From Cryptobacterium curtum DSM 15641 (GTDB taxonomy: Bacteria; Actinomycetota; Coriobacteriia; Coriobacteriales; Eggerthellaceae), in the NCBI RefSeq assembly GCF_000023845.1, contig NC_013170.1:1032501-1096500 (forward strand): a stretch of 64,000 nucleotides of DNA. Reading direction: 5' to 3'. A program made the translations under genes and the position numbers. Numbering within the stretch: position 1 is the stretch's first letter; each line of letters opens with the position of its first letter. Below are positions 48,991-49,247 of the stretch, in pieces. The notes under the pieces are model-generated. The model was not told the DNA's origin. It saw only the letters and a program-made list of their open reading frames with translations, and did not search any database.

Positions 48991-49092
48991 TTCCCTAACC
49001 TTTCTTGCCACCTGCTTCTTGAAGCACGTCATATCACTTGGTATCTATCCTTGCCCCCTTGCTCCTCTTCATAGAAGCAAGTTTCAGGCATG

Positions 49093-49134
49093 AAAAAGGC
49101 AGCACGTATCGAACAATCGATACGAACTGCCTTT
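49093..49134 (-). terminator. Terminator-like hairpin in the adhesin leader
   Basis: On the minus strand AAAGGCAG and CGTATCG pair with CGATACG and CTGCCTTT (8 + 7 bp with a small internal loop and a 6-base apical loop), followed by a run of five T. It lies between the adhesin promoter and the start codon, about 105 bases before the ATG, so it could attenuate the gene. Confidence 0.75.
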
Positions 49135-49171
49135 ACGAATGTACTATTCGATTCTGACTAGATAGCTGTAG

Positions 49172-49215
49172 CTGCCTGCCTGCCTGCCTGCCTGCCTGCC
49201 TGCCTGCCTGCCTGC
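49172..49215 (-). repeat. CTGC tetranucleotide repeat (11 copies)
   Basis: Eleven perfect tandem CTGC units occupy 44 bases (GCAG on the minus strand). Such long perfect tetranucleotide runs are prone to slippage. It begins four bases downstream of the predicted -10 box of the adhesin promoter, placing it at the start of the leader RNA. Confidence 0.97.
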
Positions 49216-49218
49216 GAA

Positions 49219-49247
49219 ATTATGTCGCTTTGCTCAAGAATCATCAA
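49219..49247 (-). promoter_or_regulatory. Predicted promoter of the adhesin gene
   Basis: On the minus strand TTGATG (49247-49242), 17 bases, CATAAT (49224-49219). Four of six and five of six bases match the consensus, with optimal spacing. The start of transcription would fall at the edge of the CTGC repeat. Confidence 0.55.

Follow-up and report, generated by a model that had tools for sequence, protein, structure and literature searches.

A candidate phase-variable attenuator with a tetranucleotide repeat in the leader of an antigen I/II-family adhesin gene of Cryptobacterium curtum

Introduction

Phase variation through a repeat inside a leader peptide has been described for the pil1 locus of Streptococcus gallolyticus, in which GCAGA repeats in the leader peptide control expression (Danne et al. 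2014, PMC3894217). Expression is low when at least 28 nt separate the leader stop codon from the terminator behind it, and high when the stop codon adjoins the terminator or lies inside it. Mutants demonstrated that this control depends on translation of the leader as well as on the terminator (PMC3894217).

Here we describe a leader of comparable layout, located upstream of an adhesin gene on the minus strand of the genome of Cryptobacterium curtum DSM 15641. This member of the Eggerthellaceae (Actinomycetota) is an oral anaerobe. Its genome consists of a single contig (C1) with 1,617,804 bases. The window, i.e. the whole 64-kb stretch that was analysed, corresponds to C1:1032501-1096500, and coordinates given below without a contig refer to it. 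As in pil1 and pil3, the leader of a surface adhesin carries a short repeat whose unit length is not divisible by three, a predicted leader ORF runs over the repeat, and its stop falls, depending on frame, far from, beside or inside an intrinsic terminator located a few tens of nucleotides past the array. The device is also duplicated in the same genome, as are pil1 and pil3. Differences concern the unit (GCAG, 4 nt, in the window and GCAGA there) and the setting (antigen I/II adhesin in an Actinomycetota host here, pilus operon in Streptococcus there). Unlike in pil1/pil3, a good ribosome site and an upstream promoter are not evident in the window. The window also has an extra promoter-like element right before the array; no such element is reported for pil1/pil3 (PMC3894217). 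The sequence-only reading called the arrangement unusual, and unusual it is, but an experimentally demonstrated precedent exists (PMC3894217).

More distant parallels can be drawn with three other systems. In Moraxella catarrhalis uspA2, a tetranucleotide repeat, (AGAT)n, is likewise located upstream of an adhesin ORF and changes the transcript level; counterparts of the predicted leader terminator and leader ORF of the window are not described for uspA2 in the parts of the source drawn on here (PMC7302503). In trp-type attenuation, as would be the case here, the position of the ribosome on a leader ORF decides whether the terminator forms; the decision in the window would be encoded in DNA by repeat number, and not by the supply of charged tRNA. 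Tetranucleotide contingency genes of Haemophilus and Neisseria are surface genes with unstable arrays, placed in the frame of the gene or setting promoter spacing. In the window, by contrast, a stop codon separates the array from the reading frame of the adhesin, and promoter spacing is constant.

Organization of the adhesin locus

The gene downstream of the leader (47056-48990, minus strand) encodes an adhesin with an SPKTG-type wall anchor, in which domain searches recognized Adhesin_P1_N (PF18652, 8.6e-26) and GbpC, the V-region (PF08363, 1.4e-49). Its score of 400 bits against NF033804, the full-length streptococcal equivalog, is below the cut-off of 1500, and we regard the protein as a short distant relative of the antigen I/II family, not as the streptococcal equivalog. 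The adhesin most probably starts with the ATG at 48990-48988, which is preceded at 8 nt by the ribosome site AAAGG (48999-49003) and aligns the signal peptide with those of homologues; a longer alternative ORF, from ATG 49032, has a poor ribosome site.

All elements that the sequence-only reading had placed upstream of this gene on the minus strand were recovered. A -35-like hexamer TTGATG (49242-49247) and a -10-like hexamer CATAAT (49219-49224), separated by 17 nt and with 9 of 12 promoter matches, form the best promoter-like element of the region according to a promoter scan. The -10-like hexamer ends 3 nt ahead of the array, and the predicted start site lies within the first repeat units. 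The array itself, (GCAG)11 (CTGC on the plus strand; 49215-49172), is 100% pure and is the sole long tetranucleotide array in the window. A chance origin of the array is excluded: in the whole 1.62-Mb genome, only this leader and the paralogous one described below contain at least four CTGC units in a row. A separate repetitive feature of the window is a degenerate 18-bp tandem repeat of about five copies at 44065-44158, overlapping the start of a gene that we take to be ThiM-like from our own reading.

Beginning 37 nt past the array, a predicted intrinsic-terminator-like hairpin followed by five T residues (49093-49134, -26.0 kcal/mol by folding) precedes the adhesin ATG. Its sequence is AAAGGCAGTTCGTATCGATTGTTCGATACGTGCTGCCTTT (49134-49095), and the T run (49097-49093) overlaps the stem, which is why a simple terminator scan missed the hairpin and folding detected it. 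A second hairpin, CTTGCTTC..GGAGCAAG, is located at 49058-49081 (-10.6 kcal/mol). The leader as a whole (49215-49033) folds more stably than all of 200 shuffled sequences (z = -4.8), and no credible match to RNA families of the Rfam type was obtained in 48900-49600. The gene upstream of the leader, presumably DivIVA-like judging from the ORF list, has its own terminator at 49455-49480 on the minus strand (terminator scan) and therefore does not require the leader hairpin. As the hairpin is also duplicated together with the leader, a role as terminator of the upstream gene was ruled out.

Two classical modes of repeat action were ruled out as well. A TAG stop in the adhesin frame (49047-49045) lies between the array and the adhesin ORF, so the repeat is not part of the adhesin reading frame and frame switching of the adhesin itself is excluded. 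Promoter spacing is likewise insensitive to the repeat, as had been proposed earlier, because the array is placed downstream of the -10-like hexamer.

Folding of the repeat and the terminator

The sequence-only reading had further proposed that GGCAG units of the RNA bind CUGCC in the 3' arm of the terminator as an antiterminator, with a strength set by repeat number. Six bases of a repeat unit are indeed able to pair with this arm. Folding of the leader with 0 to 30 units showed, however, that repeat number is without effect on the terminator: the pairing probability of its core stays at about 1 throughout, and that of the competing repeat:CUGCC pairing does not exceed about 1e-4. With the 5' arm blocked, the fold is less favourable by 10.6 kcal/mol. 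All these values are from equilibrium folds and not from co-transcriptional simulations. In addition, the upper stem of the terminator forms first, and of 11 comparable leaders, no more than 3 show complementarity of at least 5 nt between repeat and 3' arm. A pairing switch is for these reasons very improbable. What stands of the earlier proposal of a repeat-controlled leader is the changeable repeat, the predicted intrinsic terminator before the gene and, with these, probable attenuation controlled by the repeat.

Reading frame of the leader

One ORF enters the array in the window. It starts with ATG 49244, reads MILEQSDIISQ(AGRQ)n, is open through the repeat, and at n = 11 its putative translation has 28 aa (MILEQSDIISQAGRQAGRQAGRQAATAI; 49158-49244, minus strand). 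Because this ORF, which the sequence-only reading had left out of account, crosses the repeat, its frame is the likeliest variable, and we lean towards interpreting the region as a phase-variable transcription attenuator controlled by the frame of the leader ORF.

Slipped-strand mispairing would alter the number of GCAG units, and each unit gained or lost inside the leader ORF would shift the frame. Depending on frame, the stop codon ends +14, +28 or +39 after the array, while the terminator starts at +37; the stop is consequently 23 nt before the hairpin at n = 11, 9 nt before it at n = 9 and 2 nt inside it at n = 10. In the frame of the window copy (n = 2 mod 3, +14 stop), the hairpin would be free to form and transcription would end before the adhesin. 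In that of the second genomic copy (n = 9, hence 0 mod 3; +28 stop), a ribosome at the stop would hinder the hairpin and the adhesin would be transcribed; the same outcome is predicted for n = 1 mod 3. The layout, the difference in repeat number between the two copies and the enrichment of this layout in relatives are observed, and leader translation, a leader promoter, termination and the on and off states are what we infer in this scheme.

The frame-controlled attenuator is favored by the paralogous leader, which has 9 and not 11 units and is otherwise little changed. It is also favored by the position of the three stops relative to the terminator, by the leader of the S. satelles homologue and the enriched features of related leaders (both below), and by the pil1/pil3 precedent (PMC3894217). 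Several features of the window speak against it. The ribosome site of the leader ATG, AAGTGG at a distance of 4 nt, is weak, and the promoter scan found no promoter with at least 9 of 12 matches upstream of this ATG in the window genome. The only recognisable promoter would initiate in the array, i.e. downstream of the leader ATG. Moreover, most relatives have a wider spread of stops, whereas here the hairpin is not read through completely in any frame. The stop positions do fall well before, beside or inside the terminator as in pil1, the distance of 23 nt in the window being near the boundary of the published low state (28 nt or more).

Second genomic copy and homologues

A second adhesin locus is located at C1:205 kb. 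Identity with the window copy is 97% over the leader and the 5' end and 98% over the 3' end, the middle being divergent, and the two proteins are 81-82% identical. In the alignment of the two leaders, the part upstream of the array shows few base differences, and most others cluster directly after the terminator. The stem of the second hairpin is retained in the C1:205 kb copy (-8.2 kcal/mol) despite a different sequence. The paralogous array, (GCAG)9 as compared with (GCAG)11, indicates a change in repeat number after the separation of the copies or after their last homogenisation. As an observation on the genes themselves, the two copies (window 47056-49032; L012 3190-5193) have near-identical ends and a divergent GbpC/V-region, a pattern that would be expected from cassette exchange or gene conversion yielding antigenic variants.

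In the search of genome contigs, the sole homologue match was Shuttleworthella satelles (Bacillota), which has two adjacent antigen I/II paralogues; its homologous protein is 47-50% identical to the window adhesin. The first paralogue is preceded by TTGACA-N16-TATAAT and is without an expanded repeat. The second has TTGACA-N17-CACAAT, directly followed by (ACAG)36, two hairpins with T runs and the ATG. In this leader, a good ribosome site, AAAAGGA, is placed 9 nt upstream of the leader ATG, the stops of the three frames are at +5, +34 and +72 with the terminator at about +50, and at n = 36 the ORF ends inside the terminator. The adhesin following (ACAG)36 is itself repetitive: its frame spans about 2,990 residues and contains at least 11 repeats of 363 bp (L011 5850-9893).

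Two homologues from the same class as the window genome, G603 and G717, have neither the repeat nor an evident leader terminator. The device was therefore rejected as an ancestral trait of all homologues: it is not ancestral to the adhesin gene, yet recurs with it.

Related leader arrays

A search of genomes for arrays with CAGN and CAGNN units yielded leader-type and coding-type arrays. In the S. satelles family, 44 of 397 genomes had CAGN arrays of at least 8 units, as did 7 of 398 genomes of the class to which the window belongs. Class tests used 17 or 18 leader arrays from Lachnospiraceae and Coriobacteriia and dinucleotide-based shuffles; leader-type loci were picked partly by eye, several contigs end at arrays, and the statistics that follow overstate independence because relatives may share descent.

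An ATG with a ribosome site, open into the array, was found in 15 of 17 leaders (2.3 in shuffles, maximum 6 in 400 shuffles), the exceptions being L064 and the window genome, so the window is not counted as a positive. A stop codon follows the array within 15 nt in all 18 leaders, and ends exactly at +5 in 8 of them, compared with 1.06 in shuffles. Terminators of -12 kcal/mol or stronger occur in 12 of 18 leaders against about 0.9 expected, 11 of these beginning +37 to +52 after the array. A promoter with at least 10 of 12 matches is located 60-110 nt upstream of the array in 5 of 17 leaders (0.28 in shuffles; none in flanking control windows). Genes downstream encode mostly secreted or surface proteins (leucine-rich repeats, VWA, beta-helix, unnamed with signal peptides), in addition to a chemoreceptor and some regulators. 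These comparisons support the view that leader arrays in Lachnospiraceae and Coriobacteriia form one class of putative frame-controlled attenuators.

According to another explanation, the repeat is a neutral unstable tract whose drift has no consequence, and the leader hairpin attenuates or insulates constitutively. G603 and G717 show that the gene does not need the device, which fits such neutrality. The array is nevertheless kept in both C. curtum copies, the unit differs between species while the layout and the terminator distance persist, and unit length, searched for 4 and 5, is 4 or 5 in all leader cases and never a multiple of three. We consider a neutral repeat quite unlikely.

Some leaders have further features. 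In L073, L074, L081, L090 and L126, the array is directly followed by a short segment complementary to the repeat and then by T (e.g. GATAAGTCTGTTTTC), and in many leaders such a segment may act as a weak second terminator with the array itself as its 5' arm. L069, L077 and L120 have ACAG arrays with TTGACA-N18-TATATT, and their leader ORF either ends within a few bases of the ATG of a secreted protein, upstream of it, or is fused to that protein in one frame; terminator-free switching through translational coupling is possible in these loci. In L129, an AACAG array is flanked by TTGACAGGG ahead of it and, behind it, by the perfect 9-nt complement CCCTGTCAA, and one RNA stem could enclose the leader start and the array.

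Promoter-like element at the array

A match of 9 out of 12 is weak alone, and support for the window promoter comes from the equivalent position of a promoter, with its start site in the repeat, in 15 of 17 related leaders compared with 0.28 in shuffles. If transcription does start in the array, the repeat would belong to an untranslated 5' end, and its length could alter transcript stability, escape or read-through gradually. A change of this kind is known for the AGAT repeats upstream of uspA2, which alter the mRNA level up to about 3-fold (PMC7302503). The element adjoining the array is moreover the best in its region. Against this explanation, both the sequence at the start site, once n is at least 4, and the predicted folding of the terminator are constant, and two enriched features are left unexplained, namely a leader ATG that has a ribosome site and the stop right after the array. 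We consider it unlikely.

The promoter-like element also adjoins arrays inside coding genes, namely those for AMP ligase, acyltransferase and, less clearly, hsdS. In hosts and viral contigs alike (L060-L131 and L158-L277), (ACAG)n arrays, mid-gene ones included, are preceded by TTGACA-N16/17-NANAAT at a distance of 2-7 nt. Among 101 ACAG arrays of viral contigs, which form an independent set, TTGACA is located 29-34 nt before the array in 57, compared with 18 in the remainder of the same 200 nt. The corresponding counts in viral-contig controls are 3/100 for antisense, 1/71 for GCAG, 2/75 for CCAG, 1/33 for CAAT and 4/35 for GATA arrays. TTGACA occurs in different reading frames and is therefore a DNA-level feature of the array. 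As viral-contig GCAG arrays lack the promoter, kinship with the leader class accounts better than the repeat unit for its presence at the GCAG array of the window.

The array promoter cannot supply the leader ATG, which is upstream of the promoter's start site, and it likewise cannot supply the start codons of array-bearing coding genes. It might serve the array and not the gene, initiation by RNA polymerase making, or having made, the repeat unstable, so that the switch would carry its own mutator. This reading draws on the single distance at which the element precedes leader, coding-gene and viral-contig arrays, and on its rarity in antisense, GCAG, CCAG and CAAT controls; we put it forward as a doubtful possibility. 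By conjecture, TTGATG-N17-CATAAT-(GCAG)11 in the window would be a member of such self-mutator arrays.

ACAG arrays were also noted in the middle of seven genes (L060, L062, L063, L084, L087, L095 and L096) from the S. satelles family and Coriobacteriia. From their translations, we take these to be hsdS-like restriction specificity genes, in which the arrays probably confer phase-variable restriction-modification.

Biological meaning

In the literature found, phase variation by a leader-peptide attenuator is described for one species. The pil1-type design, known from one Streptococcus pilus, seems to be much more widespread, and the sequences suggest a common switch of Lachnospiraceae and Coriobacteriia, Gram-positive commensals of the mouth and gut, with adhesins, leucine-rich-repeat surface proteins and regulators as suggested targets. 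A suggested consequence is that the on or off state could be read from the repeat number in a genome alone. The promoter recurring at the repeat, also in coding and phage genes, would bear on the origin and mutation of contingency loci.
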